Source: Actinomycetospora termitidis
GTDB lineage: Bacteria; Actinomycetota; Actinomycetes; Mycobacteriales; Pseudonocardiaceae
DNA length: 64,000 bases
NCBI RefSeq assembly: GCF_030286555.1
Contig: NZ_JASVWF010000007.1
Coordinates: forward strand, 62,001-126,000
Direction of reading: 5' to 3'
Shown: positions 5,005 through 46,310 of the stretch, in pieces
Layout: the number at the start of each line of letters is the position of its first letter
Numbering within the stretch: the first letter of the stretch is position 1
Notes under the pieces: model-generated
What the model saw: the letters and a program-made list of their open reading frames with translations, nothing else
What the model was told of the DNA's origin: nothing
Databases searched by the model: none
Position numbers and translations under genes: made by a program

Positions 5005-6432
5005 ATGGCCGACGTCGACCTGCTGGTCGCCGGGGCTGGCGGTGGCCTGGCCGGGGCGCTGCGCGCCGCCGAGCAGGGACTGTCGGTGGTGGTCGCCGAG
5101 GCGAACCCGCACTACCGGCGGGGCAACAACACCGCCATGTCGACCGCGATGATCCCCGGCCCGGGCAGCCGCTTCCAGCGCGCCGCGGGCGTCGAGGACA
5201 CCCCGGAGCGCTTCCTCGCCGACGTCGCCGCCAAGACCCACGGCGAAGCCGACCCGGTCGTCGCCGCGACCCTCGCGCACCTCGGGGCGGAGCTCGTCGA
5301 GTGGCTGGCCGACCACGTCGGGCTGCCGGTCGAGCTGGCCGCCGTCGACTACCCCGGCCACTCCGTGCGGCGCTGCCACACGGTGCCCGGCCACCACGGC
5401 TCGACGCTGCTGCGTGCGCTCGCCGACGCGGCTGAGGCGTCGTCGTCGATCGACGTGATGTGCCCGGCGCGGCTCACGGGGCTGGCTCCCGTTTCGAGCG
5501 AAGGGCACCTTCCGTCGAGTAGTTCGAGCGAAGGGCCCCTTCGCTCGGAGTGGCGGGTGACTTTGACCCGTCCCGACGGCGGGTCCGAGGAGCTGACGGC
5601 GTCCGCGGTGCTGCTCGCGACGAACGGCTACGGCGCCGCCCCGGAGCTCGTCGCGCGCCACCTGCCCGAGATCGCCGACGCCGCCTACCACGGCAGCGAG
5701 TACTCCACCGGCGACGCGCTGCGCTTCGGCGCCGAGCTGGGCGCGGCATCCGGGTACCTCGACGCCTACCAGGGCCATGCCGGGCTCTCCGCCGCCGCGC
5801 GGACGCTCGTCACGTGGACCACCGTCATGAACGGCGCGATCGTCGTCGACGCCGACGGGCGCCGCTTCGGCGACGAGACCGTCGGCTACTCCGAGTACGC
5901 CGCGATGCTCGCCGCCCGCCCCGGCGCCCGCGGCTGGGTGGTCCTCGACGAGCGGATCGACGCGCTGACCCGCGGGTTCACCGACTACGTCGACGTCCTC
6001 GAGGCGGGGGCGGTGCGGCGCGGGGACTCGGTCGAGGAGCTCGCGGAGCGGATCGGCGTCGACGCGGCCGTGCTCGAGGCCGAGATCGCGGACGCCGCGG
6101 CCGTCGCGCGCGGGGAGGCCGCCCTCGACCGGGTTGGACGCCGATCAGTGGCCGCTCCGCTCGAGGCGCCCTACGCCGCCGTCGAGATCGTCCCGGCCCT
6201 GTTCCACACCCAGGGCGGGCTGCACGTCGACGCCGACGCCCGGGTGCTCGACGCGGGCGGCGTCCCGCTGGGCTCGCTCTACGCCTCCGGGGGCGCGGCG
6301 GTCGGCATGTCCGGCCACGGCGCCGCCGGCTACCTCGCGGGCAACGGCCTGCTCCCCGCCCTCGGCCTGGCCTATCGCGCCGCCGACCACTGCGCCTCGC
6401 AGGCATCCACCGTCAGGAAGGTTCACGCATGA
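5005..6432 (+). CDS. FAD-dependent oxidoreductase, fumarate reductase / 3-ketosteroid dehydrogenase fold
   Basis: The 475-residue protein begins with a dinucleotide-binding motif (GAGGGLAG, about residues 9-16). It ends with the FAD-binding block containing YASGGAAVGMSGHGAAGYL, as in the FAD_binding_2 family (fumarate reductase-like, 3-ketosteroid dehydrogenases, tricarballylate dehydrogenase). The ATG at 5005 has GGAGG seven bases upstream. An odd feature is a Ser/Glu/Gly-rich peptide near residues 164-181. It is encoded by the 51-bp palindromic repeat at 5496-5546, which inserts a multiple of three bases and leaves the frame open. The stop overlaps the amidohydrolase start (ATGA), so the two are coupled. 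The substrate is unknown; a dehydrogenase acting on an acid or ring substrate of this locus is likely. Confidence 0.85.
   Translation: MADVDLLVAGAGGGLAGALRAAEQGLSVVVAEANPHYRRGNNTAMSTAMIPGPGSRFQRAAGVEDTPERFLADVAAKTHGEADPVVAATLAHLGAELVEWLADHVGLPVELAAVDYPGHSVRRCHTVPGHHGSTLLRALADAAEASSSIDVMCPARLTGLAPVSSEGHLPSSSSSEGPLRSEWRVTLTRPDGGSEELTASAVLLATNGYGAAPELVARHLPEIADAAYHGSEYSTGDALRFGAELGAASGYLDAYQGHAGLSAAARTLVTWTTVMNGAIVVDADGRRFGDETVGYSEYAAMLAARPGARGWVVLDERIDALTRGFTDYVDVLEAGAVRRGDSVEELAERIGVDAAVLEAEIADAAAVARGEAALDRVGRRSVAAPLEAPYAAVEIVPALFHTQGGLHVDADARVLDAGGVPLGSLYASGGAAVGMSGHGAAGYLAGNGLLPALGLAYRAADHCASQASTVRKVHA
5496..5546. repeat. 51-bp palindromic repeat, copy 1 (inside a CDS)
   Basis: The element starts GAGCGAAGGGC and ends GCCCCTTCGCTC with a central GTAG. 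Copies of the same 51-bp length lie at 25492-25542, 43249-43299 and 46260-46310. Here it encodes a peptide that includes SEGPLRSE within the FAD oxidoreductase. Both coding copies are read in the same frame. Confidence 0.85.
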
Positions 6433-7892
6433 CGCACGACCTGATCCTCCGCAACGTCCGCGTCGTCCGGCCGGGCGTCGGTGACGCGGCTCTCGGCGAC
6501 ATCGCCGTCGACGACGGCCGTGTCGCCGCGGTCGGTCCGGACCTCGGCGACGACGCCCGTGAGGTCGTTGACGGGCGCGGCCAGCTCGCGTTCCCTGGCG
6601 TCGTGGACGCCCACCAGCACTGGGGGATCTACAACCCGCTGGAGGAGGACACCGCCACCGAGAGCCGCGCGTGCGCCCAGGGCGGCGTCACGACCTCGCT
6701 GACCTACATGCGGACCGGCCAGTATTACCTGAACACCGGCGGGCCGTACTCGGAGTTCTTCCCGCGGGTGCTGGCGGCGTCCGACGGCCGCTCGTACGTC
6801 GACTACGCCTTCCACCTCGCGCCGATGTCGGCTGGCCACATCGACGAGATCCCGACGCTGGTCGACGAGCACGGCGTCACGTCGTTCAAGATCTTCATGT
6901 TCTACGGCAGCCACGGGCTGCACGGTCGCTCGAACGCCCAGAACGACTTCCTCATGATCCCCGAGGGCGAGCGCTACGACATCGCCCACTTCGAGTTCGT
7001 CATGCGCGGCATCCAGCGCGCCCGCGAGGCCCGCCCGGACATCGCCGACGCCATCTCGCTGTCGCTGCACTGCGAGACCGCGGAGATCATGACGGCGTAC
7101 ACGAAGATCGTCGAGCAGGAGGGGACGCTCTCCGGGCTGGAGGCCTACAGCGCCTCGCGGCCGCCGCACTCCGAGGGACTCGCCGTCACGATCGCCTCGT
7201 ACCTCGCGCACGAGACCGGGCTCCCGACGATCAACCTGCTGCACCTGTCGTCGGCCAAGGCGCTCGAGGCCGCGATGCTGATGGCGCAGACGTTCCCGCA
7301 CGTGGACTTCCGCCGGGAGGTCACCGTCGGGCACCTGCTCGCCGACATCCACACCGCGGACGGCGTGGGCGGCAAGGTCAACCCGCCGCTGCGCCCGCGC
7401 GAGGACGTCGAGGCGCTGTGGCGGCACGTGCTGGCGGGCGACGTGTCGTGGGTCGTGTCCGACCACGCGTGCTGCAAGGAAGCGACGAAGTTCGGGGACG
7501 ACCACGAGGACGTGTTCGCCGCCAAGTCCGGGTTCGGCGGCACGGAGTACCTGCTGCCCGGGCTCGTGGGGGAGGGCCTGAAGCGGGGCCTGCCGCTGTC
7601 ACGGATCGCCGAGCTGACCTCGACGGCGCCGGCGCAGCGCTTCGGGCTCGGCGCGACCAAGGGCGACCTCGCGCCCGGCTTCGACGCCGACATCGCGCTG
7701 GTCGACCCGGACCGTTCGTGGACCGTGGACCCGGCGGACTCGGAGTCCACCCAGGAGTACACTCCGTTCCGCGGCCTGGAGATCGGCTCGACCGTCACGC
7801 GCACGTTCCTGCGGGGCCGCACGGTGTTCGCCGACGGCAAGGTCGTCGGCGAGCCGGCGGGGCGGTTCCTGAGGAGGCCTTCGGCCCGGTGA
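6429..7892 (+). CDS. Hydantoinase/dihydroorotase-like cyclic amidohydrolase
   Basis: The 487-residue protein keeps the full metal-site pattern of the dihydropyrimidinase/hydantoinase family: H62xH64 in DAHQHW, the Lys expected to be carboxylated in SFKIFMFYG (K154), H214 in LHCE, H272 in LHLSSA and D345 in SDHACC. Such enzymes open cyclic amides (hydantoins, dihydropyrimidines, allantoin-like rings) with two metal ions. The ATG overlaps the TGA of the FAD oxidoreductase. Its pairing with a flavoprotein and, across the divergent promoter, a cyclase-type hydrolase and CoA enzymes suggests oxidation and ring opening of a heterocycle followed by CoA-dependent cleavage. The substrate cannot be read from the sequence. 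Confidence 0.9.
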   Translation: MTHDLILRNVRVVRPGVGDAALGDIAVDDGRVAAVGPDLGDDAREVVDGRGQLAFPGVVDAHQHWGIYNPLEEDTATESRACAQGGVTTSLTYMRTGQYYLNTGGPYSEFFPRVLAASDGRSYVDYAFHLAPMSAGHIDEIPTLVDEHGVTSFKIFMFYGSHGLHGRSNAQNDFLMIPEGERYDIAHFEFVMRGIQRAREARPDIADAISLSLHCETAEIMTAYTKIVEQEGTLSGLEAYSASRPPHSEGLAVTIASYLAHETGLPTINLLHLSSAKALEAAMLMAQTFPHVDFRREVTVGHLLADIHTADGVGGKVNPPLRPREDVEALWRHVLAGDVSWVVSDHACCKEATKFGDDHEDVFAAKSGFGGTEYLLPGLVGEGLKRGLPLSRIAELTSTAPAQRFGLGATKGDLAPGFDADIALVDPDRSWTVDPADSESTQEYTPFRGLEIGSTVTRTFLRGRTVFADGKVVGEPAGRFLRRPSAR

Positions 7893-7939
7893 GGCCGATC
7901 GGCGGTGATCGAGTTCGTACGATCGGCGGCTGGATCTTC

Positions 7940-7955
7940 TCGAACAGGTGTTCGA
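7940..7955. promoter_or_regulatory. Perfect LexA (SOS) box
   Basis: TCGAACAGGTGTTCGA matches the actinobacterial LexA consensus TCGAAC-N4-GTTCGA exactly. It ends ten bases before the ATG of the HNH/DUF222 gene. Control by LexA and induction on DNA damage are inferred from the match and its position. Confidence 0.8.
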
Positions 7956-7965
7956 CACTTGAGCC

Positions 7966-9795
7966 ATGACCGCGCTGCCGCTCGAACCGACCGTTGCCTC
8001 TGCGGCACCGGTCGAGCTCGAGCCGTCCGCGGTGCCCGGTGAGCTCGCGGAGGACGAGCTGCGGGCGGCGTTCGCCGCCGAGAACCGCGCCGCGTGGACG
8101 AAGCTGCGGTGGCTGCGGGAGGCGTGTCGCTCGCGGGCGGGGACGACGGTCCGTGAGACCGGTCGGGACGACGGGGCGGTGGCCGCGGCCGCGCTGGGGT
8201 GGTCGGCGTCCATGGCCGGAGCGCGGCTGGAACTTGCCGACGGCGTTCTCGAGCGGCTGCCCGCTCTCGGTGAGGCGATGGCCTCCGGCGCCCTGGAGCC
8301 GACGAAGGCGTGGTTGTTCGTCTCGACCCTGCGCGAGCTCGACCGAGACCGGGCGGTCGCGGTGGTCGATCGGCTGCTCGCCCGAGCACCGCGCACCCCG
8401 CACCAGAAGCTGCGCGAGATGATCGAGGTCGCCGCCGCGGAGATCGATCCCGACTGGGACGAGGCGCGCCGAGCTGCGGCGATCGCCCGCGCACGCGTGC
8501 TGGCGCGGATCGGGCCCTCGGGGGCGGCCGAGCTGTCCGGTCTCGACCTGCCCTGGGAGGCTGCGAAGGACGCCTACGACCACCTCGTCGCGGTCGCCGA
8601 CGCGGTCCTGGTCGGGCTCCGCGCCGCGAACGTCGACATGAGCGAGGGCGTGGTGCAGGCGCACGTGTTCGTCCGGCTGCTCGGCCGCGATCATCTCGGC
8701 CACGGCGATCCCGACCTGGTCGCCCGCCTGGCCGCGGAACTCCTCGCCGGAGAACCTGCCGCTGGCGGCCCGGACGACGGTGGCCCGGACGACGGTGGCC
8801 CGGATGACGGTGGCCCGGAGGACGGTGGCCCGGACGATGACGGCGCGGACGATGACGGCCCGGGCGATCCGGGTCGGTCCCACGCTCTCGGGTCGAGGCT
8901 GCCGTTCCGTCGACGGGTTGCCGTCCGGTTGGGCCTCCCGACCCTGCTCAGGCTCGACCGTCGCCCCGCCGAGGTGCCGGGCTGGGGTGTCGTCGCCGCT
9001 CCGACCGGTCGCGCGCTCGCCCTGCGGCGGCGGGCGGCCCGATGGCGCCTGCACCTCTACGACCGCACCACCGGGTTCCTCGAACACTCCCTGCTCGTCG
9101 GGCCACCCGGCGACGGGCTCAGCGCGCCCGACGACCCGCACCGCGCCCAGATCGTCGAACTCGTGGCCTTCACCGACGAACTCGACGCCCTCGTTCCCGC
9201 GGAGGCGCTGCACGGCGACCTCGTCGCGTCCGCCCAGGCTGCGCTGGCGCACGCCCGCGCCCATCCCGAGCGGCACCCGGCCCGCAGTGACCGCGACGCC
9301 GACCGCCGGTTCCCCGGCGCCGACCTCGACGACTGGGTCCGAGCCCGGGACCGGACGTGTCGATTCCCCGGCTGCTCACGGCCGGCCTACGGCGCCGACC
9401 TCGACCACACCGTCGCGGTGACGGACGACGGTCTCACGCTCCCGGACAACCTCGGGCCGCTGTGCCGACGGCACCACCGGCTCAAGCACACACCGGCCGC
9501 CGGGTGGGTCCTCGAGCAACCCGACGCCGGGCACTTCGTCTGGACCAGCCCCAACGGCACCCGCCACGAGGTGCGGCCCGAACCCTTCGAGCCCGTCATC
9601 GAGATCCCTGCGGCGACCGGACCCGCCCTGCCCCTCTCGGCGTTCGGCCCGCCCCGTGACACCACGCCCTGGAAGCCCCGTCGCAACCGCTACGGCCACG
9701 TCACGAGTGCGGCGCGCGCGACGGTCGTGGCCATCCGGGCCATCGACCGGAACCGCCGGCCACCTCCACCCGCGGACGACGACCCGCCCTTCTGA
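7966..9795 (+). CDS. DUF222 / HNH endonuclease (13E12 repeat family)
   Basis: The 609-residue protein has an N-terminal alpha-helical DUF222 domain. A C-terminal HNH nuclease follows near residues 463-507, with CRFPGCSRPAYG, the active-site DLDH, and LCRRHHRLKH. This is the architecture of the actinobacterial 13E12 family, usually present in many copies per genome. Between the domains (about residues 267-301) lies an acidic Gly-Pro-Asp linker made of 15-bp tandem repeats. The perfect SOS box at 7940-7955 suggests damage-inducible expression, as reported for mycobacterial members. The biological role (DNA repair or a selfish nuclease) is not settled for the family. Confidence 0.92.
   Translation: MTALPLEPTVASAAPVELEPSAVPGELAEDELRAAFAAENRAAWTKLRWLREACRSRAGTTVRETGRDDGAVAAAALGWSASMAGARLELADGVLERLPALGEAMASGALEPTKAWLFVSTLRELDRDRAVAVVDRLLARAPRTPHQKLREMIEVAAAEIDPDWDEARRAAAIARARVLARIGPSGAAELSGLDLPWEAAKDAYDHLVAVADAVLVGLRAANVDMSEGVVQAHVFVRLLGRDHLGHGDPDLVARLAAELLAGEPAAGGPDDGGPDDGGPDDGGPEDGGPDDDGADDDGPGDPGRSHALGSRLPFRRRVAVRLGLPTLLRLDRRPAEVPGWGVVAAPTGRALALRRRAARWRLHLYDRTTGFLEHSLLVGPPGDGLSAPDDPHRAQIVELVAFTDELDALVPAEALHGDLVASAQAALAHARAHPERHPARSDRDADRRFPGADLDDWVRARDRTCRFPGCSRPAYGADLDHTVAVTDDGLTLPDNLGPLCRRHHRLKHTPAAGWVLEQPDAGHFVWTSPNGTRHEVRPEPFEPVIEIPAATGPALPLSAFGPPRDTTPWKPRRNRYGHVTSAARATVVAIRAIDRNRRPPPPADDDPPF
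8767..8868 (+). repeat. 15-bp coding tandem repeat (GPDDG units)
   Basis: Four units close to GGCCCGGACGACGGT run from 8767 to 8826. Degenerate units continue to about 8868. They encode the linker between the DUF222 and HNH domains. Copy number probably varies between strains by slippage without shifting the frame (inference). Confidence 0.8.
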
Positions 9796-9805
9796 CGCCC
9801 CGGCC

Positions 9806-10339
9806 TCACGGGCGCGCAGCGCACACCACGAGGTCCAGCAGCCGGGCCGTGCGGGCGCGGTCGTCGACGTCCTGCATCGTCACGAACGTCCCCACCAGCA
9901 GGGTCACCAGGTCGTCCGGCTCGATGCCGGGGCGCAGGGAACCGTCGGCCGCGCCCGCCGTCAGGAAGGTCCCGACGGCGGCGTCGACCGACTCGCGCGT
10001 GCGCAGCGACGCGAGCGACCCGTCCGCGACCATCGCGCGGAACGTGTCGGCCATGCCGCGCTTGGTGAGGACGAACTCGGCGTAGCGGTCCAGCCAGGCG
10101 CGGAAGCCGGTCGCTGCGTCGGGCCGGATGTCCAGGTCGCGGCACAGGGCCTCGAGCTCGTTGCGGTACACCGCCTCGACGAGCGTCTCGCGGGTCGGGA
10201 AGTGCCGGTAGAGCGTGCCGATCCCGACGCCGGCGTCGCGCGCGACCTTCTCCAGCGTCACCTCGCCGCCCGCGGCGAAGGCGTCCGCGGCGGCGTCGAG
10301 CAGGCGGGCGCGGTTACGGGCGGCATCGGCGCGCGGCAT
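9806..10339 (-). CDS. TetR family transcriptional regulator
   Basis: The 177-residue repressor has the TetR N-terminal HTH (VTLEKVARDAGVGIGTLYRH, residues 27-46) and a helical ligand domain. It is divergent from an aldo/keto reductase gene, with 85 bp between the starts. Two similar dyads in that gap are candidate operators. It most likely represses the reductase/hydrolase pair and itself. The ligand is unknown. Confidence 0.92.
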   Translation of the reverse strand: MPRADAARNRARLLDAAADAFAAGGEVTLEKVARDAGVGIGTLYRHFPTRETLVEAVYRNELEALCRDLDIRPDAATGFRAWLDRYAEFVLTKRGMADTFRAMVADGSLASLRTRESVDAAVGTFLTAGAADGSLRPGIEPDDLVTLLVGTFVTMQDVDDRARTARLLDLVVCAARP

Positions 10340-10343
10340 AAGT

Positions 10344-10398
10344 GGAGGTGCCTCCGTTTCGGGTGTAGCGTCGTCGGCAGAACCGGAGGCTACTCCGG
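10344..10398. promoter_or_regulatory. Two related dyads between tetR and the aldo/keto reductase gene
   Basis: GGAGGTGCCTCC (10344-10355) and CCGGAGGCTACTCCGG (10383-10398) share the pattern GGAG-N4-CTCC and flank the divergent start sites. They are candidate TetR operators by position and symmetry only. Confidence 0.5.
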
Positions 10399-10424
10399 AT
10401 CACCGACGAACGAGGGGTGGAGCC

Positions 10425-11282
10425 ATGCGTCCCGGAGGCACCGCGAAGCTGGGGGAGCACGAGGTCGCGCGCGTCGGGTACGGCGCGATGCAACTGCGCG
10501 AGGAGGGACCGGACGACGAGCCCGTCGCCGTCCTGCGCCGCGCCCGCGAGCTGGGCGTGGACCACGTCGACACCGCCGAGTTCTACGGCGACGGCGTGGT
10601 CAACCGCCGGATCCGGGCCGCGCTCGCGCCGTACGAGGACGTCGTGATCGCCACCAAGGTCGGTGCCGAACCCGCCGACGGGGAGATCCCGCTGCGCTTG
10701 GCCCAACAGCCCGAGCAGCTGCGCGCGCAGGTCGAGGCGAACCTGCGCTCGCTGGGCGCGGAGCGGCTCGACGTCGTCAACCTCCGCCGCGCCGACGCCC
10801 CGCCCGGGCTCGTGGCCGAGGGCGACCAGGTCGTCGACCTGGACGACCAGCTCGCCGTCATGACCGCCCTGCGCGACGAGGGCAAGATCGGTGCGATCGG
10901 TCTCTCGCACGTGTCCGCGGAGCAGCTGCGGCACGCGCTGCCGGTCGGTGTCGTCTGCGTGCAGAACGCGTACTCCCTGGTGGACCGGTCGTCCGAGCCG
11001 GTGCTCGACCTCTGCCGTGAGCACGGCATCGCCTGGGTGCCCTACTTCCCGCTCGGGAGCGCCTTTCCGGGGCAGACCCATGTCGCGACGCTTCCCGCCG
11101 TCCGGACGGTCGCCGAACGCACCGGCGCCACGGCGTCCCAGGTCGGGCTCGCGTGGGTGCTGTCGCGCTCGCCGGAGTCGATGGTCATCCCGGGGACGCG
11201 CTCGGTCGCCCACCTCGAGGAGAACGTCGGCGCGGGGTCGGTCTCGCTCTCCGCGGCGGACCTCGCTTCACTGGAGGCATGA
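10425..11282 (+). CDS. Aldo/keto reductase family oxidoreductase
   Basis: The 285-residue protein has the AKR (beta/alpha)8 pattern. ELGVDHVDTAEFYGDG holds the catalytic Asp and Tyr, VIATKVG the Lys, and VIPGTRSVAHLEENV the C-terminal NADPH-binding part. The usual His-containing stretch reads VVNLRRAD here instead of a canonical histidine motif, so catalytic efficiency or substrate may differ. The ATG at 10425 is preceded by GAGGGGTGG. The stop overlaps the next start (ATGA). Family members reduce aldehydes and ketones or help remove reactive carbonyls. Confidence 0.88.
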   Translation: MRPGGTAKLGEHEVARVGYGAMQLREEGPDDEPVAVLRRARELGVDHVDTAEFYGDGVVNRRIRAALAPYEDVVIATKVGAEPADGEIPLRLAQQPEQLRAQVEANLRSLGAERLDVVNLRRADAPPGLVAEGDQVVDLDDQLAVMTALRDEGKIGAIGLSHVSAEQLRHALPVGVVCVQNAYSLVDRSSEPVLDLCREHGIAWVPYFPLGSAFPGQTHVATLPAVRTVAERTGATASQVGLAWVLSRSPESMVIPGTRSVAHLEENVGAGSVSLSAADLASLEA

Positions 11283-12001: not shown

Positions 12002-12005
12002 CACG

Positions 12006-13729: not shown

Positions 13730-13743
13730 ATCGCGGCCACACC

Positions 13744-13774: not shown

Positions 13775-13781
13775 CACGGGC

Positions 13782-16163: not shown

Positions 16164-16165
16164 TC

Positions 16166-16196: not shown

Positions 16197-16209
16197 TCAC
16201 GCTGTCGTC

Positions 16210-16770: not shown

Positions 16771-16811
16771 CGCACGATCGTCGCGCGGCGTGACCCCGAG
16801 CCTCGGACCAT

Positions 16812-23360: not shown

Positions 23361-23403
23361 GAACAGCCGGGACCCCCGTCACGTCCGGGGGTCCCGGCTG
23401 TTC
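23361..23403 (+). terminator. Strong 18-bp hairpin between the IniB-like and dynamin genes
   Basis: A perfect 18-bp stem (23361-23378 with 23386-23403; arm GAACAGCCGGGACCCCCG) has a 7-base loop. It should end or attenuate transcription from the IniB-like gene, so that the IniB-like protein is made in excess of the dynamins. A -10-like TAGAGT (23458-23463) then offers a separate promoter for them. Confidence 0.75.
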
Positions 23404-23491: not shown

Positions 23492-25576
23492 TTGAACGTA
23501 GGGGGACCGACCTCGGGGGTGGACGGCGTGGACGGGGAGGGCAGCCACGACGGGGCGTCGACGGGTCCGGACCGGGGTGAGGCCCGGGCGGTCGCCGCCC
23601 TCGCGGTGCGCGCCGCCGCCGCGTACGGCCGCCCCGACCTCTCCGCCGACCTCGCCGCCGCCGCCGACCGCCTCGCGGACCCGGGCGCCCGGGTGCTCGT
23701 CGTCGGGGACTTCAAGCAGGGCAAGAGCTCGCTGGTCTCCGAGCTGGCGGGCACGCCGGTGTGCCCGGTGCACGACGACGTCGCGACCCGTCTCCCGACC
23801 GTCGTCCGCCACGGCCCGGAGCCGGCCGCGACGCTGGTGGCCGCGCCGGACGAGGAGAGCGGGGCGGGTTCCCGACGGCGGGTCGGGTCGGCCGAGCTGA
23901 CCGCGGCGGTGAGCGGGACGCCGACCGACGGCGCCGCCTGGTCGCACGCCGAGGTCGAGCTCCCGACCGGGCTGGTCGGCGACGGCCTCGTCCTCGTGGA
24001 CACCCCGGGCGAGGGCGGGCCGCGCTCCGCCCGCGGGCTCGCCGTCCGGGCGGGGTTCCCGGCCGCGCACGCGGTCGTCGTCGTGACCGACGCCTCCCGC
24101 GAGCTGACCGCACCCGAACTCGCGCTGCTCCGCGCGGCGGAGCGCCAGTGCCCGACGGTCGTCGTCGCGCTGACCAAGACCGACCTGCACCCGCGCTGGC
24201 GGGAGGTCCGCGACCTCGACCGGCGCCACCTGCGGGCCCAGGGACTGGAGCGGGTCGCCGTCCTGCCGGTGTCGGCGACGCTCGCGGCCCACGCGCGCCG
24301 CCTCGCGGAGCGCGACGACCCCCTATCGGCGTGCTCGGATGCATTGTCGGGAGCCACGCTCCTCGAGGAGTCCGGCGTGCCGGCCCTGGCCGACCTGCTG
24401 CGCGCCGACGTGGCCGACCCGGCCGGTGCGCGGCACGCGGTCGGCGTGCTCGACCAGGTCGCGGACGCGGTCGCGGAGTTCGGCGCGGCGCTGGAGGCCG
24501 AGCGGGTCGCGCTGGAGGACCCGGAACGCGTGGCCGCGATGGCCGCGGAGCTGACCGCCGCCCGCGACCGCGTCGCGGAGCTCAAGGAGCGCAGCGCGCG
24601 CTGGCAGCAGACCCTGGCCGACGGCGTCGCCGACCTCGTCTCGGACATCGACTGGGACCTGCGCGACCGCATCCGCCACGTCGTGCGGGCCGCGGAGGAG
24701 TCGCTGGACGCGGCGGACCCGGCGTCGACCTGGGACACGTTCGCGCCGTGGCTGACCGAGGAGATCTCCGAGGCGGTGACGACGACGTTCATCTGGGCGG
24801 GCGAGCGCACCTGGCGGCTGGCGGAACGGGTCGCGGACCACTTCGCGATCTCCGGCGGCGAGGTCCGGTCGAAGCTGCCGGGGCCGGGCGGCGCGGTGGC
24901 CGTCGTCGCCCCCGGGCCGCCCGAGTCGCCGCTGGAGCAGACGATGCCGGGCGGGATGGTCGTGCGCGCGGAGCTGCCCGACGTCCCCGGCATCGACGTG
25001 CCCGACCTGGAGCGGATCGGGTGGGCGAACGGGCTCGTCGTCGGGATGCGGGGGTCGTACGGCGGGGTGCTGATGGTCGGGATGGTGACGACGTTGTCCG
25101 GGCTCGCCCTGATCAACCCGTTCTCCGTGGGGGCCGGCGTGCTGCTCGGGTCGAAGACGATCCGCGACGAGCGCAAGCGGGCCCTGCAACGACGGCGGGC
25201 GGAGGCCAAGCAGGCGGTCCGGCGCCACGGCGACGAGGTGCTGCACCTGGCCGGCAAGCGCTCCCGGGACCTGCTGCGCGACGTCCAGCGCACCCTGCGC
25301 GACCACTTCACCGCGCAGGCCGAGTCGCTCGCGCGCTCGGTCGCGGAAGCAGTGACTGCCGCGGCGGCCGCGCAGGAGATCGAGAGCGCGCAGCGGGACC
25401 GGCGGCTCCGGGACGTGAAGGCGGAGCTGGCGCGGGTGGAACTGCTCGCGGAGCGGGTGCAGGCGTGCCGGGCCGGGTTCGCGGCGGAGTTGAGCGAAGG
25501 GCCCCTTCAGTCGGATAGGTCGAGCGACGGTGCCCTTCGCTCGGAACGTCGGCTCGCCCGCACCGGTGCCGCATGA
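23492..25576 (+). CDS. IniA-like bacterial dynamin GTPase
   Basis: The 694-residue protein has a dynamin-type GTPase head: G1 GDFKQGKSS near residue 72, G3 DTPG near 170, G4 TKTD near 228. A long helical stalk follows, with a hydrophobic stretch GVLMVGMVTTLSGLALINPF that may be the membrane paddle. It then has more coiled helices. Mycobacterial IniA is a membrane-fission dynamin, and this is the same class and gene order. The TTG at 23492 is assumed as start; GTG at 23519 is in frame. The last ~20 residues come from a 51-bp palindromic repeat (25492-25542). The stop overlaps the partner dynamin start (ATGA). Confidence 0.85.
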   Translation: MNVGGPTSGVDGVDGEGSHDGASTGPDRGEARAVAALAVRAAAAYGRPDLSADLAAAADRLADPGARVLVVGDFKQGKSSLVSELAGTPVCPVHDDVATRLPTVVRHGPEPAATLVAAPDEESGAGSRRRVGSAELTAAVSGTPTDGAAWSHAEVELPTGLVGDGLVLVDTPGEGGPRSARGLAVRAGFPAAHAVVVVTDASRELTAPELALLRAAERQCPTVVVALTKTDLHPRWREVRDLDRRHLRAQGLERVAVLPVSATLAAHARRLAERDDPLSACSDALSGATLLEESGVPALADLLRADVADPAGARHAVGVLDQVADAVAEFGAALEAERVALEDPERVAAMAAELTAARDRVAELKERSARWQQTLADGVADLVSDIDWDLRDRIRHVVRAAEESLDAADPASTWDTFAPWLTEEISEAVTTTFIWAGERTWRLAERVADHFAISGGEVRSKLPGPGGAVAVVAPGPPESPLEQTMPGGMVVRAELPDVPGIDVPDLERIGWANGLVVGMRGSYGGVLMVGMVTTLSGLALINPFSVGAGVLLGSKTIRDERKRALQRRRAEAKQAVRRHGDEVLHLAGKRSRDLLRDVQRTLRDHFTAQAESLARSVAEAVTAAAAAQEIESAQRDRRLRDVKAELARVELLAERVQACRAGFAAELSEGPLQSDRSSDGALRSERRLARTGAA
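25492..25542. repeat. 51-bp palindromic repeat, copy 2 (3' end of the IniA-like gene)
   Basis: It has the same length and arms (GAGCGAAGGGC / GCCCTTCGCTC) as the other three copies, and it encodes SEGPLQSD and SSDGALRSE in the reading frame used by copy 1. It extends the C-terminus of the dynamin just before the coupled start of the next gene. Confidence 0.85.
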
Positions 25577-38462: not shown

Positions 38463-38478
38463 CGCGGGCCGCGCGGAG

Positions 38479-38497
38479 CTCCTACAGCGAGTAGGAG
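38479..38497. terminator. Small hairpin between convergent era and DUF4190 genes
   Basis: CTCCTAC (38479-38485), a 5-base loop, and GTAGGAG (38491-38497) form a hairpin. It overlaps the end of the minus-strand gene and lies 17 bases past the era stop, so it could serve both directions. Confidence 0.45.
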
Positions 38498-38805: not shown

Positions 38806-38917
38806 GGCGGGGTCCTTCCCGGGTCGATGTGACTGAGAGTGACAGTAGACCGGGTCGACCCGCCGTCGTATAGGCCGGACGAGTGAGCGCCGGGCGGTGT
38901 CGGAGGGGAGTGCCAGG

Positions 38918-40620: not shown

Positions 40621-41027
40621 GCCGCGAGGCCGCCACGACCGCCACCCTGCTGATCACCGCCCGTGAGTCCCTGGAGAAGTTCGTCGAGGTCCACGTCGAC
40701 GACGACGGCGCGCTCTCCTTCCGCCACGGGGACGTGCCGTGCGCGGTGCAGGGCGTCGAACTGGTCGAGGGCCTGGCCGTGCTCTCGCTGACGTGCGTCG
40801 TGGCCTGGGATCTCCCGGGCGAGGACGTCCCGCGCCGGGTCGCCGAGCGCGCGGGTCAGGGCCTGTTCGGCACCCTCGGTGTCGTGCACACCGACGCCGG
40901 TTGGGACGTGACGCTGCGCTACGCCTTCCCGGCCGAGGGGCTCGCGCCCGATCCGCTCGGCACGCTGCTGATGCTCGTGGTGTCGACCGCCTCGCAGGTC
41001 CGCGCGGATCTGACGGAGGGTTCCTGA
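40617..41027 (+). CDS. Conserved hypothetical protein, possibly YbjN-like
   Basis: The 136-residue acidic protein starts at a GTG overlapping the uppS stop. It has a mixed alpha/beta pattern ([20 protein letters not shown] ... [19 protein letters not shown]) reminiscent of YbjN-type peptide-binding folds, without a clear motif. No signal peptide or membrane helix is seen. The tight coupling to recO-uppS suggests a housekeeping role that cannot be named. Confidence 0.75.
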
Positions 41028-41147
41028 CGCCGGGTCACGGTGCGAATTCCCCCGATTGCGCGGTGTATGTCCCTTTCCTCCCGTAGGCTCCGACGGACGT
41101 CGAACCCGGAGAGGAGGACGCCCACCAGCAGTGGGGGGCGTACCGGT

Positions 41148-43040
41148 ATGACACAGCAACAGGAGAGTCCGCCCCCGAAGTCCCCGGAGGAGCAGGGCGG
41201 GAGCGCGGCCGACGTGAAGGGCGTGCCGGTCGACAAGGTCGTCTTCGGTGTCGGCGCCGTCCTCGCCGTCGTCTTCGTGCTCTGGGGCATCCTCAGCACG
41301 GAGACGCTGAGCTCGGTCTCGGGCGGCATGATCGGCGGCCTGATCCAGGCGGGTGGGTGGCTGTTCATCCTCGCGGCCACCGGCTTCGTGGTGTTCGCCC
41401 TCTACCTCGCGTTCTCGAAGTTCGGGCGCATCAAGCTCGGGGGCGAGGACGAGCAGCCCGAGTTCCGCACGGTCTCGTGGATCGCGATGATGTTCTCGGC
41501 CGGCATGGGCATCGGGCTGATGTTCTACGGGGTCGCCGAGCCGCTCTCGTTCTTCACCTCGCCGCCGCCGGGGTCGGTCGCGAACGGCGACCAGGTGGAG
41601 TCGCTGCGCACCGCGATGGCGACGTCGCTGTTCCACTGGACGCTGCACCCGTGGGCGATCTACGCCGTCGTCGGGCTCGCCATCGCCTACTCGACGTTCC
41701 GCAAGGGCCGTCGCCAGCTGATCAGCCAGGCGTTCATCCCGCTGATCGGGGAGAAGGCGGCCAACGGCGCCGTCGGGCGGGTCATCGACATCATCGCGAT
41801 CTTCGCGACGGTGTTCGGGTCGGCCGCGTCCCTCGGGCTCGGCGCCCTCCAGATCGGCGGCGGTCTCGACGCGACCGGCTTCCTGCCCGACGCCGGGAAC
41901 GAGGTCCTCGTCCCGATCATCATCGTCCTGACGGCGGCCTTCATCCTGTCCGCGGTCTCGGGCGTGGCCAAGGGCATCCAGTGGCTCTCGAACATCAACA
42001 TGGTGCTCGCCGGGGTGCTCGCGCTGTTCGTGTTCGTCGTCGGCCCGACGGTGATCATCCTCGACCTGCTGCCCACCGCGGTCGGCGCCTACTTCTCCGA
42101 GTTCTTCGAGATGGTCGGGCGCACCGAGGCCACCGGCGGCGCGCCGATGCTCGACTGGCTCTCGTCGTGGACGGTCTTCTACTGGGCCTGGTGGATCTCC
42201 TGGACGCCGTTCGTCGGGATGTTCCTGGCGAAGATCAGCCGCGGCCGCACGATCCGGCAGTTCGTCGGCGGCGTGATCCTCGTGCCGAGCCTGGTGTCGC
42301 TGGTGTGGTTCGCGATCTTCGGTGGCACGGCCATCACGCAGCAGCAGCAGGGGCTGAACCCGGCCGGCGCGGACACCGAGGCGCAGCTGTTCTCGGTGCT
42401 GCAGGCCTATCCGCTGGCCACGATCACCGGGATCCTCGTGATGATCCTGGTCGCCATCTTCTTCGTCTCCGGCGCCGACGCGGCGTCGATCGTCACCGGC
42501 ACGCTCTCGCAGCGCGGCACCGACGAGCCGAAGAAGTGGGTCGTGATCTTCTGGGGCGCCACGATGGGTCTCGTCGCCATGGTGATGCTGCTGGTCGGCG
42601 GGGAGGACGCGCTCTCCGGCCTGCAGAACCTGACGATCCTCGTGGCGGCGCCGTTCGTCGTCATCATGATCCTGCTGTGCATCGCCCTGACCCGCGATCT
42701 CAACCACGACCCCGTCGTGCTGCGCGAGATCAAGGGCACCGAGGTGATCGAACAGGCCATCGACTACGGCACCGACAAGCACGGGGACGACTTCTACCTG
42801 CGGGTGCAGTCGTTCCCGGCCGACGCCGACGGTCCGTGGCGCACCGCGAACACGGGCGAGGAGCGGGTCACGTACGCGGACGTGTACAAGGGTGGCGACC
42901 CGTTCCGGGACACCGACGGGTCCGAGCCCGCCGAGGTCGGCCGCGCGGACGCCGACGGGGTCGACGACACCCTGCAGGTCGGCCCGGGCGGTGCTGCCGA
43001 CCGTGAGCCGGCAGGGCGTCCGCGCTCCGACCGGGAGTAG
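41148..43040 (+). CDS. BCCT family transporter (choline/glycine betaine/carnitine type)
   Basis: The 630-residue protein has about 12 transmembrane helices and BCCT hallmarks: GMGIGLMFYGVAEPLSF, FHWTLHPWAIYAVVG and WAWWISWTPFVGMFLAKISRGRTIRQF-region residues of the Trp box. These transporters import trimethylammonium compatible solutes with Na+ or H+. The N-terminal ~30 residues and the C-terminal ~100 acidic residues are cytoplasmic; such tails tune osmotic activation in BetP. It sits between the uppS operon and the Zur operon. Confidence 0.93.
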   Translation: MTQQQESPPPKSPEEQGGSAADVKGVPVDKVVFGVGAVLAVVFVLWGILSTETLSSVSGGMIGGLIQAGGWLFILAATGFVVFALYLAFSKFGRIKLGGEDEQPEFRTVSWIAMMFSAGMGIGLMFYGVAEPLSFFTSPPPGSVANGDQVESLRTAMATSLFHWTLHPWAIYAVVGLAIAYSTFRKGRRQLISQAFIPLIGEKAANGAVGRVIDIIAIFATVFGSAASLGLGALQIGGGLDATGFLPDAGNEVLVPIIIVLTAAFILSAVSGVAKGIQWLSNINMVLAGVLALFVFVVGPTVIILDLLPTAVGAYFSEFFEMVGRTEATGGAPMLDWLSSWTVFYWAWWISWTPFVGMFLAKISRGRTIRQFVGGVILVPSLVSLVWFAIFGGTAITQQQQGLNPAGADTEAQLFSVLQAYPLATITGILVMILVAIFFVSGADAASIVTGTLSQRGTDEPKKWVVIFWGATMGLVAMVMLLVGGEDALSGLQNLTILVAAPFVVIMILLCIALTRDLNHDPVVLREIKGTEVIEQAIDYGTDKHGDDFYLRVQSFPADADGPWRTANTGEERVTYADVYKGGDPFRDTDGSEPAEVGRADADGVDDTLQVGPGGAADREPAGRPRSDRE

Positions 43041-43163
43041 CCCCCGCCCGGTGCCGGCAATGGCACGGAACTGACACCTGACGTCAGGACGGCGCCACTC
43101 GCACATCGTCCGGTTCGCCGGCCCGATGGGTGGGTGGCGCCGTTTCGCGCGCCTGACGTCAGC

Positions 43164-43225
43164 CGCCGAGAGGCACACCAGGCACCTCGGCGGGCCGCCC
43201 GAGGTGCCTCACGTACCTCTCGGCG
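43164..43225. repeat. 62-bp palindromic repeat, reverse orientation, with different outer arms
   Basis: On the minus strand it reads CGCCGAGAGG, then TACGTGAGGCACC, a GC core, and GGTGCCTGGTGTGCC to CCTCTCGGCG. The inner part matches the element at 33152-33213. The outer arms differ from TGATCA but still pair with each other. It lies downstream of the BCCT gene and of zur, so it may act as a terminator for both. Confidence 0.82.
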
Positions 43226-43248
43226 AGGCGCGACCCCCACTCCGCCCC

Positions 43249-43299
43249 GAGCGAAGGGCGCCCTCGCTCGATCTACTCGACCGAAGGGGCCCTTCGCTC
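43249..43299. repeat. 51-bp palindromic repeat, copy 3 (intergenic)
   Basis: GAGCGAAGGGCGCC at the left, a central CTAC and GGGCCCTTCGCTC at the right; 51 bp as in the other copies. It ends six bases before the zur stop codon (minus strand). Confidence 0.85.
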
Positions 43300-43304
43300 G
43301 AACG

Positions 43305-43727
43305 TCAGCCCCGCGCCGCGAGGCAGGCCGAGCAGAGCCCGATGATCTCGACGGTGTGGTCGATCTCGGCGAAGCCGTGCTCCACGGCGACCTTCTCGGC
43401 CCAGTGCTCCACCGCCGGGCCCTCCACCTCCACCGTGCGCCCGCAGGAGCGGCACACCAGGTGGTGGTGGTGCGTGTCGGAGCAGCGGCGATAGGAGGCC
43501 TCGCCGGCCGTCGTGCGCAGGACGTCGATCTCCCCGGCGTCCGCGAGCGCCTGCAGCGTCCGGTACACCGTGGTCAGCCCGATGCCCTCGCCGCGGCGTC
43601 GCAGCTCCTCGTGGATGTCCTGGGCGGAGCGGAAGTCGTCGAGCTGGTCGAGCAGGTCGCCGATCGCCGCGCGCTGGCGGGTGGAGCGCTGCCCGGGCAC
43701 GACGGTCGGACGGGACTCGGCACTCAC
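43305..43727 (-). CDS. zur: Fur family regulator, zinc uptake regulator (Zur/FurB)
   Basis: The 140-residue protein has the Fur winged HTH (DIHEELRRRGEGIGLTTVYR, then TLQALADAG), the regulatory metal site stretch DTHHHHLVCRSC, and a C-terminal CSAC pair for structural zinc. Coupling downstream of an ArsR/SmtB gene is the arrangement of the mycobacterial smtB-zur pair. It likely represses zinc uptake and paralogous ribosomal protein genes when zinc is bound. Confidence 0.93.
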   Translation of the reverse strand: MSAESRPTVVPGQRSTRQRAAIGDLLDQLDDFRSAQDIHEELRRRGEGIGLTTVYRTLQALADAGEIDVLRTTAGEASYRRCSDTHHHHLVCRSCGRTVEVEGPAVEHWAEKVAVEHGFAEIDHTVEIIGLCSACLAARG

Positions 43728-44068
43728 GACTCCTCCTGCACGTGCTCGACCGCGTCGACGACGATGTGGGCCAGGTGGTCGTCGACCAACCGGTACACCA
43801 CCTCGCGCCCGCGCCGCTCCCCGCGGACCACGCCCGCCGCCTTGAGCACGCGCAGGTGCTGGCTGATCAACGGCTGGGTGACGCCGAGGGTGTCCACCAG
43901 CTCGTGGACGCAGCGCGGCGAGCGGCGCAGCTGCATCACGACCGCGATCCGCACCGGTGCGGCCAGCGCCCGCAGCAACTCGCCGGCGGCGTCGAGTGTC
44001 GCCGGGTCCAGGGGTGCGGGGGCGTCCGGCGGGATCGAGGACACCGGGGCGTCGTGGGAGACGGTCAT
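43724..44068 (-). CDS. ArsR/SmtB family metal-responsive regulator
   Basis: The 114-residue winged HTH protein (LRALAAPVRIAVVMQLRRSP; ELVDTLGVTQPLISQHLRVL) contains CVHELVDTLG and C-terminal acidic/His residues (VDDHLAHIVVDAVEH) matching the alpha5 zinc site of SmtB-type sensors. It overlaps both neighbours by four bases. As in mycobacteria it probably responds to zinc excess and releases expression of zur. Confidence 0.92.
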   Translation of the reverse strand: MTVSHDAPVSSIPPDAPAPLDPATLDAAGELLRALAAPVRIAVVMQLRRSPRCVHELVDTLGVTQPLISQHLRVLKAAGVVRGERRGREVVYRLVDDHLAHIVVDAVEHVQEES

Positions 44069-44361
44069 CGCAGGGCCACCCCGATCGTCACGGCCACCAG
44101 CACCACGAGCACCACGCCGCGCGCCAGGCGCTCCGGCGGCGTCATGCGCCCCCACGTGGTCGCGAGCAGCACCGCCACCCCGATCGCGAGCAGCCCCAGC
44201 AGCAGCGCCCCCACCGGACCGCCGACGATCACGCCGACCGCGAAGAGCACCGCCACGACCAGGAAGACCAGCACCGGCGACACCCCGGCCAGCGGCCCCG
44301 TCCCGGGCAGCAGCGGCCGGCGCAGGTCGCCCCGCAGATCCCGGCGCGTCCGTCTCGGCAC
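44065..44361 (-). CDS. Small two-helix membrane protein, first gene of the arsR-zur operon
   Basis: The 98-residue reading from the GTG at 44361 (GAGGAG upstream) has a basic N-terminus (MPRRTRRDLRGDLRRP) and about three hydrophobic segments (VLVFLVVAVLFAVGVIVGG; ALLLGLLAIGVAVLLATTWG; VVLVVLVAVTIGVAL). No family is recognised. Its stop overlaps the arsR start, so it is co-transcribed with the metal regulators. A metal or envelope role is only a guess. Confidence 0.72.
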   Translation of the reverse strand: MPRRTRRDLRGDLRRPLLPGTGPLAGVSPVLVFLVVAVLFAVGVIVGGPVGALLLGLLAIGVAVLLATTWGRMTPPERLARGVVLVVLVAVTIGVALR

Positions 44362-44397
44362 CTGACGCTCCTCTCGTCGCCCTCCACGATCCCATAC

Positions 44398-44412
44398 CGA
44401 CACCCGGTGTCG
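44398..44412. promoter_or_regulatory. 15-bp palindrome in the divergent promoter before the arsR-zur operon
   Basis: CGACACC-C-GGTGTCG lies 36 bases upstream of the membrane-protein start and 15 bases before the divergent monooxygenase gene. It could be an operator for ArsR or Zur, but it does not match a classical Zur box by eye. Confidence 0.4.
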
Positions 44413-44426
44413 ATAAGCTCCGCCCG

Positions 44427-44750
44427 GTGCTCCTGGTGTGCCGATTCTCCCCGGACGACGAGGCCGACTTCCTCGTCCGCGCCCGCCGTGCGGTCGGCCT
44501 GCTGGCCGCGCAGCCGAACTGCGAGCGGGTCGACCTCGCCCGCGCGGTCGAGGCGCCGGGGCAGTGGGTGCTGGTCGCGGTGTTCGCCTCGCTGACCGAC
44601 TACCGCCGCGCCCTGTCGCCCTTCGACGTCCGCGAGCACGTCGTCCCGTTCCTGTCCGAGGCGTCCACGGCCGACCAGGCCGTCTTCGAGCGGAACACCA
44701 CGGCCCTTCCCGACGGCGGGTGGGTCGAGCACCCCAGCATCCTCGGCTGA
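44427..44750 (+). CDS. Antibiotic biosynthesis monooxygenase (ABM)-like domain protein
   Basis: The 107-residue protein has a dimeric ferredoxin-like pattern: LLVCRFSPDDEADFLVRARR, NCERVDLARAVEAPGQW, VAVFASLTDYRRAL. It resembles ABM/heme-degrading-type domains. No catalytic residue is certain. The start GTG at 44427 is chosen because the core begins there. A 14-bp TCCCGACGGCGGGT copy (44708-44721) encodes LPDGG near its end. Confidence 0.7.
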   Translation: MLLVCRFSPDDEADFLVRARRAVGLLAAQPNCERVDLARAVEAPGQWVLVAVFASLTDYRRALSPFDVREHVVPFLSEASTADQAVFERNTTALPDGGWVEHPSILG

Positions 44751-44813
44751 GGTCCGCCCGGACCCGCTCGCTACGCTGGGTAGGCCGAACGAGCAGCATC
44801 AGGAGAGTTCTCA

Positions 44814-46241
44814 GTGCCCACCCCCACCGGCAGCGCCCGTATCGAGACCGTGGTGAACCTGTGCAAGCGCCGCGGGTTCGTCTTCCCCTCGGGTGAGATC
44901 TACGGCGGTACCCGGTCGGCCTGGGACTACGGGCCCCTGGGCGTCGAGCTCAAGGACAACATCAAGCGCCAGTGGTGGCGGTTCATGGTGCAGGGTCGCG
45001 ACGACGTCGTCGGCCTGGACTCCAGCGTGATCCTGCCGCGCCAGGTGTGGGTCGCGTCCGGCCACGTGGACGTGTTCACCGACCCGTTGGTCGAGTGCAC
45101 GAACTGCCACCGCCGGTTCCGCGCCGACCAGCTCGCCCAGGACTTCTCCGAGCGCACCGGCGGCCCGTCGCTGGAGACCGTCGACGCCGAGGGCAAGGTC
45201 GGCTACGACCTCTCGACGGTGCCCTGCCCGAACTGCGGCGTGCGCGGCCAGTACACCGCGCCGCGCGAGTTCAACATGATGCTCAAGACCTACCTCGGCC
45301 CCGTGGAGTCCGAGGAGGGCCTGCACTACCTGCGCCCGGAGACCGCGCAGGGCATCTTCGTGAACTTCGCGAACGTCATGTCGACCGCGCGCAAGAAGCC
45401 GCCGTTCGGCATCGGCCAGATCGGCAAGAGCTTCCGCAACGAGATCACGCCGGGCAACTTCATCTTCCGCACGCGCGAGTTCGAGCAGATGGAGATGGAG
45501 TTCTTCGTCGAGCCGGGCTCCGACGAGCAGTGGCACCAGTACTGGATCGACGAGCGCACGCGCTGGTACACCGGGCTGGGGATCGACCGGGAGAACCTGC
45601 GGCACTACGAGCACCCCAAGGAGAAGCTCTCCCACTACTCCAAGCGCACGGTGGACGTGGAGTACCGCTTCCAGTTCAACGCGGGCCAGGAGTGGGGCGA
45701 GCTCGAGGGCATCGCGAACCGCACCGACTTCGACCTCACGACGCACTCGAACCACTCCGGCGTCGACCTGAGCTACTACGACCAGGCGACCGACTCCCGG
45801 TACAAGCCCTACGTCATCGAGCCGGCCGCCGGCGTCGGGCGCCCGATGATGGCGTTCCTGCTCGAGGCCTACACCGAGGACGAGGCGCCGAACGCCAAGG
45901 GCGGGGTCGACAAGCGCACGGTGCTGCGGCTCGACCCGCGGCTCTCGCCGGTCAAGGCCGCGGTGCTCCCGCTGTCGAGGAACGCGGACCTCTCGCCGGT
46001 CGCCCGCGACGTCGCCGCCACGCTGCGGCAGCACTGGAACGTCGACTTCGACGACGCCGGGGCCATCGGGCGCCGCTACCGCCGCCAGGACGAGATCGGC
46101 ACGCCGTTCTGCGTCACGGTCGACTTCGACTCGCTCCAGGACCGGGCGGCCACGGTGCGCCACCGCGACGCGATGACCCAGGAGCGGGTGTCGTTCGACC
46201 AGCTCGAGGGCTACCTCGCCGCCCGCCTGGTCGGCTGCTGA
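44814..46241 (+). CDS. glyS: Glycine--tRNA ligase (class II, dimeric type)
   Basis: The 475-residue enzyme has class II motifs: [15 protein letters not shown] at the N-terminus, [14 protein letters not shown] (motif 2 region), [20 protein letters not shown] and the C-terminal anticodon-binding domain. A zinc-type CTNC ... CPNC insertion lies at about residues 92-147. It charges tRNA-Gly. The GTG start has AGGAGAG upstream. It is followed by copy 4 of the 51-bp palindrome. Confidence 0.97.
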
Positions 46242-46259
46242 GGCGCTCCCGTCGGTTCC

Positions 46260-46310
46260 GAGCGAACGGCACTCTCGCGCACGTAGAGGCTGCGAGGGTG
46301 CCGTTCGCTC
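46260..46310. repeat. 51-bp palindromic repeat, copy 4 (probable glyS terminator)
   Basis: The arms GAGCGAACGGCAC and GTGCCGTTCGCTC differ from the other copies at paired positions and so keep the stem; an inner CTCGC/GCGAG pair extends it around ACGTAGAG. It lies 19 bases past the glyS stop and can act as a terminator. Confidence 0.85.

Follow-up and report, generated by a model that had tools for sequence, protein, structure and literature searches.

Four 51-bp palindromes in the window

The window, a stretch of 64,000 nucleotides, comes from a genome (G000; other G numbers denote the relatives compared) of the soil actinobacterium Actinomycetospora. Four palindromic elements, each exactly 51 bp long and bounded by the 7-bp ends GAGCGAA/TTCGCTC, reside where a first-pass annotation had located them, two in genes and two between genes, as it had stated. 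Copies 1 to 3 are members of a family denoted A, copy 4 of a family denoted C (the names A, B, C and D were coined in this analysis; gene labels were rechecked with Pfam). No Rfam match was found within the window.

Copy 1 (5496..5546; RNA fold -32.7 kcal/mol, z -5.05) lies inside the gene of a FAD-dependent oxidoreductase (5005..6432, plus strand), a FAD_binding_2 protein of 475 aa (PF00890) for which a homologue alignment and an AlphaFold2 model were obtained. Copy 2 (25492..25542; fold z -4.74) encodes part of the C-terminus of a dynamin-like protein (Dynamin_N, PF00350; 23519..25576, plus strand, the start being predicted from codon usage within an ORF beginning at 23492). Both copies are translated in the identical codon phase, xxG AGC GAA, in agreement with the shared reading frame already noted. 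Copy 3 (43249..43299; fold z -5.81) is located between convergent genes, 5 bp off the 3' end of the minus-strand gene and downstream of a predicted BCCT transporter gene (PF02028; 41148..43040, plus strand); six aligned relatives have no such element at this site. Copy 4 (46260..46310; fold z -7.11) follows a class II tRNA synthetase gene (HGTP_anticodon by Pfam; 44814..46241, plus strand), of the glycyl type by our own reading only, at 18 bp from its stop codon, and precedes a predicted gene for an XdhC Rossmann domain protein (PF13478; 46378..47388, plus strand). At this place about 77 bp (9+51+17) are missing from G001, G003 and G016. The paired changes in the arms of copy 4, on which the first-pass annotation had remarked, are genuine, and set it apart as a member of a separate family, the pattern of which has 128 matches in G000.

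Abundance, length and folding of the elements

The arm pattern is not in excess in the window alone, either when up to two mismatches are allowed (34 found vs. 39.3 expected) or in a shorter form (27 vs. 36.3), and the evidence for a repeat is therefore genome-wide: exact arm matches number 133 in the genome, against 2 for a reversed-pattern control, as expected of the dispersed repeat originally proposed. By profile, the elements fall into family A with its asymmetric partner B, family C and family D.

Length was assessed in three sets. All 29 distinct sequences enclosed by perfect ends at G000 loci measure 51 bp, though 34-84 bp were allowed; a variable-gap pattern retrieved 75 elements from the genus outside G000, 71 of them 51 bp long and the others 47, 47, 49 and 38 bp; among distinct profile matches 167/171 are 51 bp, with one each of 39, 50, 52 and 57 bp. 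Profile matches (224, overlapping loci being counted repeatedly; 171 distinct places) were lengthened to the model ends, so that indels outside the aligned part are invisible, and 169/171 cover at least 45 of the 51 positions. Lengths in the codon-phase survey of G000 copies, which took only 50-51 bp matches, are no length test. Length is thus nearly fixed across the genus, the opposite of the variation that had been named as telling against an insertion element.

Covariation supports the long 23-bp stem of family A. In 29 A/C sequences preselected by perfect ends, nine stem pairs are changed on both sides, a figure reached by 2/500 shuffles, and the covariation score is 0.152 vs. 0.075 in shuffled sets (reached by 0/500), the shuffles ignoring relatedness. 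Two half-hairpins were considered as an alternative fold and dropped, neither showing covariation. In families B and D the long-range arms pair less well, at 66 and 74 percent of pairs, respectively. Conservation extends, in weaker form, to about 7-8 flanking bases on either side of the 51-bp core, and the conserved unit thus exceeds 51 bp. Palindromes with any loop length were also sought de novo in blocks of Actinomycetospora and other genera; no 51-bp peak emerged, and the noise was too high for families to be recognized.

Pairs and intergenic placement

Elements occur as single units or pairs, and solo half elements of 20-21 bp exist. The members of 53/56 pairs, four D-D pairs included, are separated by either 14 bp (21 pairs) or 24-25 bp (32 pairs).

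Loci for context counts were picked by arm pattern, and the figures apply to them rather than to a random sample of the genome. Of 68 intergenic copies at these loci, 48 are no more than 30 bp away from a stop codon, and convergent gene pairs are the most frequent setting; elements are present at 25/52 convergent junctions, 23/169 tandem and 2/40 divergent ones (Fisher p 5e-8, convergent vs. rest). Such a placement would suit bidirectional terminators or mRNA 3'-end hairpins kept by selection and not mobile, a role for which any hairpin family would suffice, and so would the strong RNA folding of the elements and the presence, in some species, of unrelated hairpins at the same place. Yet none of 98 downstream flanks has five or more T in 10, the tail of intrinsic terminators being absent; copies reside inside the ORFs of six genes, where changes of family are not explained by any need for a terminator; and sense-strand G-T mismatches outnumber A-C mismatches by only 20 to 10 (p 0.10, not significant), for which reason selection at the RNA level was discarded. 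On balance, we consider the terminator explanation unlikely.

Dimers that follow stop codons or lie between convergent genes resemble published REPs (PMC3733652), and could be classical REPINs, moved by a RAYT tyrosine transposase either lost or undetected. Most A, B and C elements of G000 (31/35, 32/37 and 8/9, respectively) also carry a central TAG/CTA reminiscent of the GTAG tag, but only 2/26 D elements have the motif, which was dropped as a universal mark. Moreover, the RAYT-type transposase domain PF01797 was detected in 0/18 genomes of the genus (three of the assemblies being 59, 83 and 84 percent complete), whereas the same search was positive in 6/61 genomes and 5/14 controls. A classical REPIN-RAYT system accordingly seems improbable.

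Translated copies

In G000 translated copies are found in six proteins, all in a single codon phase (9/9). In sister species, loci of these six genes contain coding copies of families A, B and D, and 42/42 keep the same phase (one of them, L179, being a partial match); these copies are not independent, the host genes being the same six, and chance agreement is about 1/3^6 = 0.0014. G000 has three pairs inside genes, each with a 24-bp spacer. Coding sites correspond to the boundary between the HMA and E1-E2 ATPase domains, the boundary between the PfkB and cytidylyltransferase domains, the junction of the two halves in a two-ABC protein, and a break in a DBI_PRT match.

The first-pass annotation had viewed the peptides of copies 1 and 2 as in-frame insertions, to be checked against homologues. 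Among 25 aligned FAD proteins the full peptide is present in that of the window and in P0001; a partial remnant is found in P0002, P0006 carries a short insert of unrelated sequence, and the remaining 21 lack both. The peptide is thus absent from most of these homologues. In the AlphaFold2 model, residues 166-178 of the insert have pLDDT <50 and lie between two strands (four other segments also score <50). The dynamin peptide is not a recent private insert, as a related peptide, or a degenerate one, is present at that site in most homologues in the genus. No distant homologue among the proteins examined has the same peptide without the DNA palindrome, a finding that had been named as contrary to insertion. 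The translated copies look like tolerated short protein loops, and their uniform phase points to a strong filter on coding insertions.

Distribution in the genus and change of family at slots

A complete family A element is found in 16/18 genomes of the genus and in 0/279 other genomes of the taxonomic family. Across these 18 genomes complete A copies number from 0 to 29 each, and arm-pattern counts range from 3 to 133 for A, 0 to 128 for C, and 0 to 53 for D. Counts of C are high in G000, G001 and G003, those of D in G003, G009 and G014. Intergenic orthologues were aligned at 11/18 queried sites, plus 5/9 further family C sites. The empty sites sought following the first-pass annotation exist: the element is absent, as a block, at some orthologous sites in sister species. 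Slots are mostly filled in close relatives, however, so that many insertions are old.

Across the genus, orthologous slots may hold another family, be empty, or contain half an element. At 10/24 slots, 5/6 coding slots included, sister species carry a different family, and most slots hold one family per genome. At the P-ATPase slot both members of a 51-24-51 pair belong to D in G003; G000, G001, G014 and G016 have A/B there. Exchanged single elements align end to end on the same 51 columns (s16, CydDC-like). Mixed neighbours also occur, two B and one D at the RfaE-like site of G009, and D beside A at s11 in G014 and G003.

The mixed neighbours would be expected if ancestral mixed tandem arrays (for instance D plus two B) had lost different members in different lineages, with no replacement, and the solo half elements suggest that deletions do occur. 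Against such losses stand the end-to-end match of swapped single elements, the P-ATPase pair, entirely of one family in G003 and of others elsewhere, and the rule of one family per genome at most slots; even so, differential loss comes close to having an even chance of being correct. More tentatively, it may be the slot, not the sequence, which is inherited, being repeatedly overwritten by hairpins from other families that agree in length, phase and pair spacing. An existing palindrome would then be the target of the next family, in a cassette-like exchange by an enzyme reading hairpin geometry and not sequence; overwriting and exchange are put forward jointly, as a plausible rather than a probable account. 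The change of family at slots suggests recognition of hairpin shape.

The elements might also be binding sites of a DNA-binding protein, involved in nucleoid organization, segregation or DNA uptake, their sequence being under selection. The outer arms are symmetric and, in the chosen set, invariant, and the two spacer classes are about one helical turn apart; but A, C and D fill the same slots while differing in sequence, complete A copies are few, and stretches are present or absent as blocks. We regard binding sites as very unlikely.

A model for the spread of the elements

The elements are probably non-autonomous palindromic mobile elements of the REP/RPE class, with no gene of their own, which have spread within Actinomycetospora; we infer mobility from comparison between species. 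This reading is favoured by the genome-wide excess over the control and the near-constant length, the covariation over the full hairpin and the sites without the element in relatives, the wide variation of copy number in the genus and the confinement of complete A elements to it among family genomes, the single codon phase, the coding sites at domain linkers, the low-confidence turn in the FAD model, and the regular pair spacing. The suggestion in the first-pass annotation that the element may be dispersed or mobile and tolerate coding sites agrees with the dispersed families and with in-frame copies in six G000 genes.

New copies would arise by copy-and-insert, a hairpin intermediate being handled by some enzyme. 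Insertions would persist where harm is small, just past stop codons or, in genes, at linkers, ends and loops; survival within genes would require an added length divisible by three, as with 51 bp or with a pair of 126 bp, and the surviving phase would yield a hydrophilic peptide of the SEGPLRS type. The family at an occupied slot could subsequently switch, either through replacement or because members of a mixed array were lost.

Target duplications, as looked for in a MITE of a DDE insertion sequence, were sought by eye at empty sites; no clear one was seen, a near-repeat at copy 4 being too imperfect to claim. The empty copy 4 site lacks about 77 bp, not 51, and flanks are conserved beyond 51 bp, so that the moved unit may not be the 51 bp alone. 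The lack of a PF01797 mobiliser and of a confident target duplication, the age of the slots and the weaker pairing of B and D were counted against mobility. Membership of copy 4 in another family, pairing of elements, a unit exceeding 51 bp and slots that switch family are additions to the first-pass annotation.

Comparison with known systems

The best-known palindromic elements inserted in-frame are those of Rickettsia, and the spread of such elements without a transposase of their own is, to our knowledge, unexplained. In Actinomycetospora the unit is almost strictly 51 bp, there are several families, and orthologous slots in coding sequence hold another family, nothing, or half an element. 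Two long-standing questions thereby become open to test: how such palindromes spread, and how new segments enter proteins. Overwriting of slots, if true, would mean that elements equivalent in structure but not in sequence are exchanged for one another. No description of these repeats in Actinomycetospora was found among the literature matches listed (top 4 to 20 per search).

REP/BIME and REPIN-RAYT elements are likewise short palindromes that form dimers, are located beyond stop codons or between converging genes, and in part lie within ORFs, intragenic REPs being reported from other bacteria (PMC3733652). Unlike REPINs, the Actinomycetospora elements reside in genomes with no PF01797 match (18 genomes), have a near-invariant length of 51 bp, and keep their coding copies in one phase. 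The phyla listed for CGTC and GTAG repeats in PMC3733652 do not include Actinobacteria. Counts of predicted REPs are given by RepRanger for Arthrobacter, Acidipropionibacterium and Acidimicrobium, so that the mere occurrence of REPs among actinobacteria is no novelty; the words Pseudonocardi- and RAYT are both absent from that text (PMC12306157).

CGTC-tagged REPs, for which no dedicated transposase is reported, have a CCA tail, as CCA ends 28/37 B elements here, and include intragenic copies and, in two species of Xanthomonas, different REPs at about one recB position (PMC3733652). They differ in having stems of 8-9 bp, vs. the 23-bp long-range stem of A (PMC3733652), and CGTC, the tag at one end of each such unit, is found at the inner end of only 6/37 B elements.

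The likeness to Rickettsia palindromic elements, pointed out in the first-pass annotation, holds for the working mode: both are dispersed palindromes of several families, found in-frame in unrelated proteins and absent from homologues. Elements of the RPE-4/RPE-6 (CGTC) kind have no known dedicated transposase, according to PMC3733652 and PMC10969869. The likeness was judged by features, not sequence, and the host is here a high-G+C actinobacterium. Rickettsia elements are reported to be about 150 bp long (PMC10969869), vs. 51 bp here, and Actinomycetospora differs further in the 24-bp spacing shared by intergenic and coding pairs, and in the change of family at orthologous slots.

Families and fold of the 51-bp elements

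The four palindromes described in the first-pass annotation as exactly 51 bp long (copies 1 to 4, at 5496-5546, 25492-25542, 43249-43299 and 46260-46310) are borne out as exact 51-mers by the sequence of the window, the G+C content of which is 74%. The A. termitidis genome (G000; 6.56 Mb, 30 contigs) has 133 matches to the arm pattern GAGYGAANGGSNCC, vs. 2 for the reversed control. Four families were distinguished. Family A, which includes copies 1 to 3, is symmetric by consensus; family B has the left arm in common with A, but ends in GGGCGCCCTTCGCCA or similar, and its members mostly adjoin an A or a second B element; family C is that of copy 4; family D, with arms GCGTGAGGGGAACCC and GGGTTCCCCTCACGC, was encountered in sister species. 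Distinct places matching the A-D profiles number 171 in the loci fetched from the genus, 167 of them being 51 bp long. Conservation, weaker than in the core, extends about 7-8 bases past either end of the 51-mer, and for this reason the full unit may be nearer to 65-67 bp; abutting units, if that long, would account for the 14-bp spacer of pairs.

In a set of 29 distinct elements, 92.7% of the cells of the 23-bp stem are paired, and 9 pairs changed on both sides; the covariation score was attained by 0 of 500 shuffles, which ignore relatedness. Because the set was picked by perfect 7-bp ends, the end pairs carry no covariation information. Covariation supporting two separate half-hairpins was looked for, and none was found. 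Full-length pairing amounts to 92, 66, 81 and 74% in families A, B, C and D, respectively.

Distribution and genomic placement

Complete A elements are present in 16 of 18 Actinomycetospora genomes; the rest of the family, represented by 279 genomes (45 genera), has none. The genus also holds the closest named proteins of two window genes, and A. chibensis and A. straminea (95%) are the closest named relatives at the tRNA synthetase locus. D arms number 9-53 in eight genus genomes and 0-1 in the other ten; C arms number 85-128 in G000 and two relatives (G001, G003), 3-16 in four genomes, and 0-1 in the remaining eleven. Such uneven counts indicate that the families expanded in different branches. 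G030, from a different genus of the family, has 20 arm matches vs. 4 for the control, yet no complete 51-bp A element; its repeat is possibly related to those described here.

Placement was scored for 88 elements of 50-51 bp, against genes predicted by codon usage in 45 loci: 68 are intergenic, 9 lie within genes, and 11 cross a predicted gene edge. Intergenic elements are flanked by convergent (33), tandem (32) or divergent (3) genes, a stop codon being found within 30 bp for 48 of the 68. Elements reside at 25 of 52 convergent, 23 of 169 tandem and 2 of 40 divergent junctions. No T tract was found 3' of the elements (0 of 98 downstream flanks).

Elements within genes

Elements are contained in six G000 proteins: the FAD oxidoreductase (copy 1), the dynamin-like protein (copy 2), a heavy-metal P-type ATPase, a PfkB/cytidylyltransferase fusion, which we take to be RfaE-like, a two-ABC transporter protein, presumably CydDC-like, and a CobT-like nitroreductase/DBI_PRT fusion. 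The inserts occupy linkers, loops or a terminus. That of the FAD oxidoreductase is modelled as a turn of low confidence joining two strands, further low-confidence segments occurring in the same model. The common reading frame noticed in copies 1 and 2 extends to all nine in-gene elements of G000, which share a single codon phase, as do 42 of 42 sister-species copies (A, B and D) in the same six genes, one of these copies (L179) being a partial match. All three in-gene pairs of G000 have a 24-bp spacer, which brings the length added by a pair to 126 bp, equal to 42 codons; no frame-shifting, 14-bp-spaced pair was seen in the coding loci of these genes.

Variation at orthologous sites

Six coding and 18 intergenic slots, i.e. 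orthologous positions able to hold an element, were compared, using only relatives with a fetched orthologue. By profile calls, the family differs between species at 10 of the 24: five coding (CobT-like, RfaE-like, P-ATPase, CydDC-like, dynamin) and five intergenic (s2, s8, s11, s16, s17). At s16, within conserved flanks, G000 and G001 hold A, and G003, G014 and G016 hold D. The P-ATPase slot holds an A/B pair in G000, G001, G014 and G016, an A-A pair in G009, and a D-D pair in G003 and G015. On the unrooted six-gene tree, (G001,G014,(G003,(G016,(G000,(G009,G015))))), with supports of 0.99-1.00, at least two family changes are needed at the RfaE-like, CydDC-like and s16 slots, because G001 holds A or B, whereas G003, G014 and G016 hold D. 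Either replacement or the loss of members of mixed arrays may underlie the family changes. Three more sites have C in G000 and, in G014 or G016, hairpins outside the A-D profiles. These are of type ACGAACGGSYCGTTCGT (L271, L273, L275, L276, L280), and occur in G014 at three sites, two of which have them in G016 also. No A/B, C, D switch was called at the remaining slots, where relatives have the same family, other hairpins or none. The CydDC-like linker, which holds family A in G000, has in G005, a further species of the genus (L218), two tandem palindromes of other sequence (AGCGAACGCGCTGTTCGC..), as judged by eye.

Empty sites, which the first-pass annotation had suggested looking for in sister strains, exist in relatives: element-free orthologues were found for the CobT-like gene (G007, G008, G017), s6 (G016), one C site (G001) and the copy 4 site (G001, G003, G016). 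Slots with a full 51-bp element in relatives hold solo half elements of 20-21 bp at L179, L182 and the FAD site of G003 (L163); such halves may represent the basic unit, or have arisen by deletion.

Other hairpins in the window

A further hairpin (GAGAGGCACACCAGGCACC...; about 43168-43221) lies directly upstream of copy 3, and is possibly a further family travelling beside A. Composite places matching 43167-43307 were found in G016 and at G000:C11:411897, and hairpins resembling that of 43168-43221 are found at the s8 and s9 sites of relatives. A perfect 38-bp hairpin is found at 61092-61129 (TGAGCACTTCGAGG..CCTCGAAGTGCTCA); in certain sister species, s5 and s6 are occupied by hairpins with similar ends. 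At 23361-23403, a 43-bp hairpin (GAACAGCCGGGACCCC..GGGGTCCCGGCTGTTC) resembles an ordinary conserved terminator; its counterpart at the corresponding position of G001 (L160:3897) measures 41 bp.

Relation to known repeats

The elements are best read as mobile palindromes, similar to REPs or to Rickettsia palindromic elements (RPEs), filtered for harmless sites: palindromes would insert, and copies would be kept where the site is harmless. A search restricted to PF01797, the RAYT-type transposase family, found no member in the genus. A single machinery common to A/B and D is favoured, since these are equal in length, phase and spacing. Among the matches listed in the literature searched, no earlier description was found of a near-strict 51-bp unit or of a single codon phase, nor any precedent for recurrent switches of family at orthologous slots in coding sequence. 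Other features are already published: passages of PMC3733652 deal with tagged REPs and REP dimers, REP location past stop codons, intragenic copies, and REPs that differ between two Xanthomonas species at roughly one and the same recB position; in-frame RPEs figure in part of PMC10969869, and REPs predicted in other Actinomycetota in part of PMC12306157.
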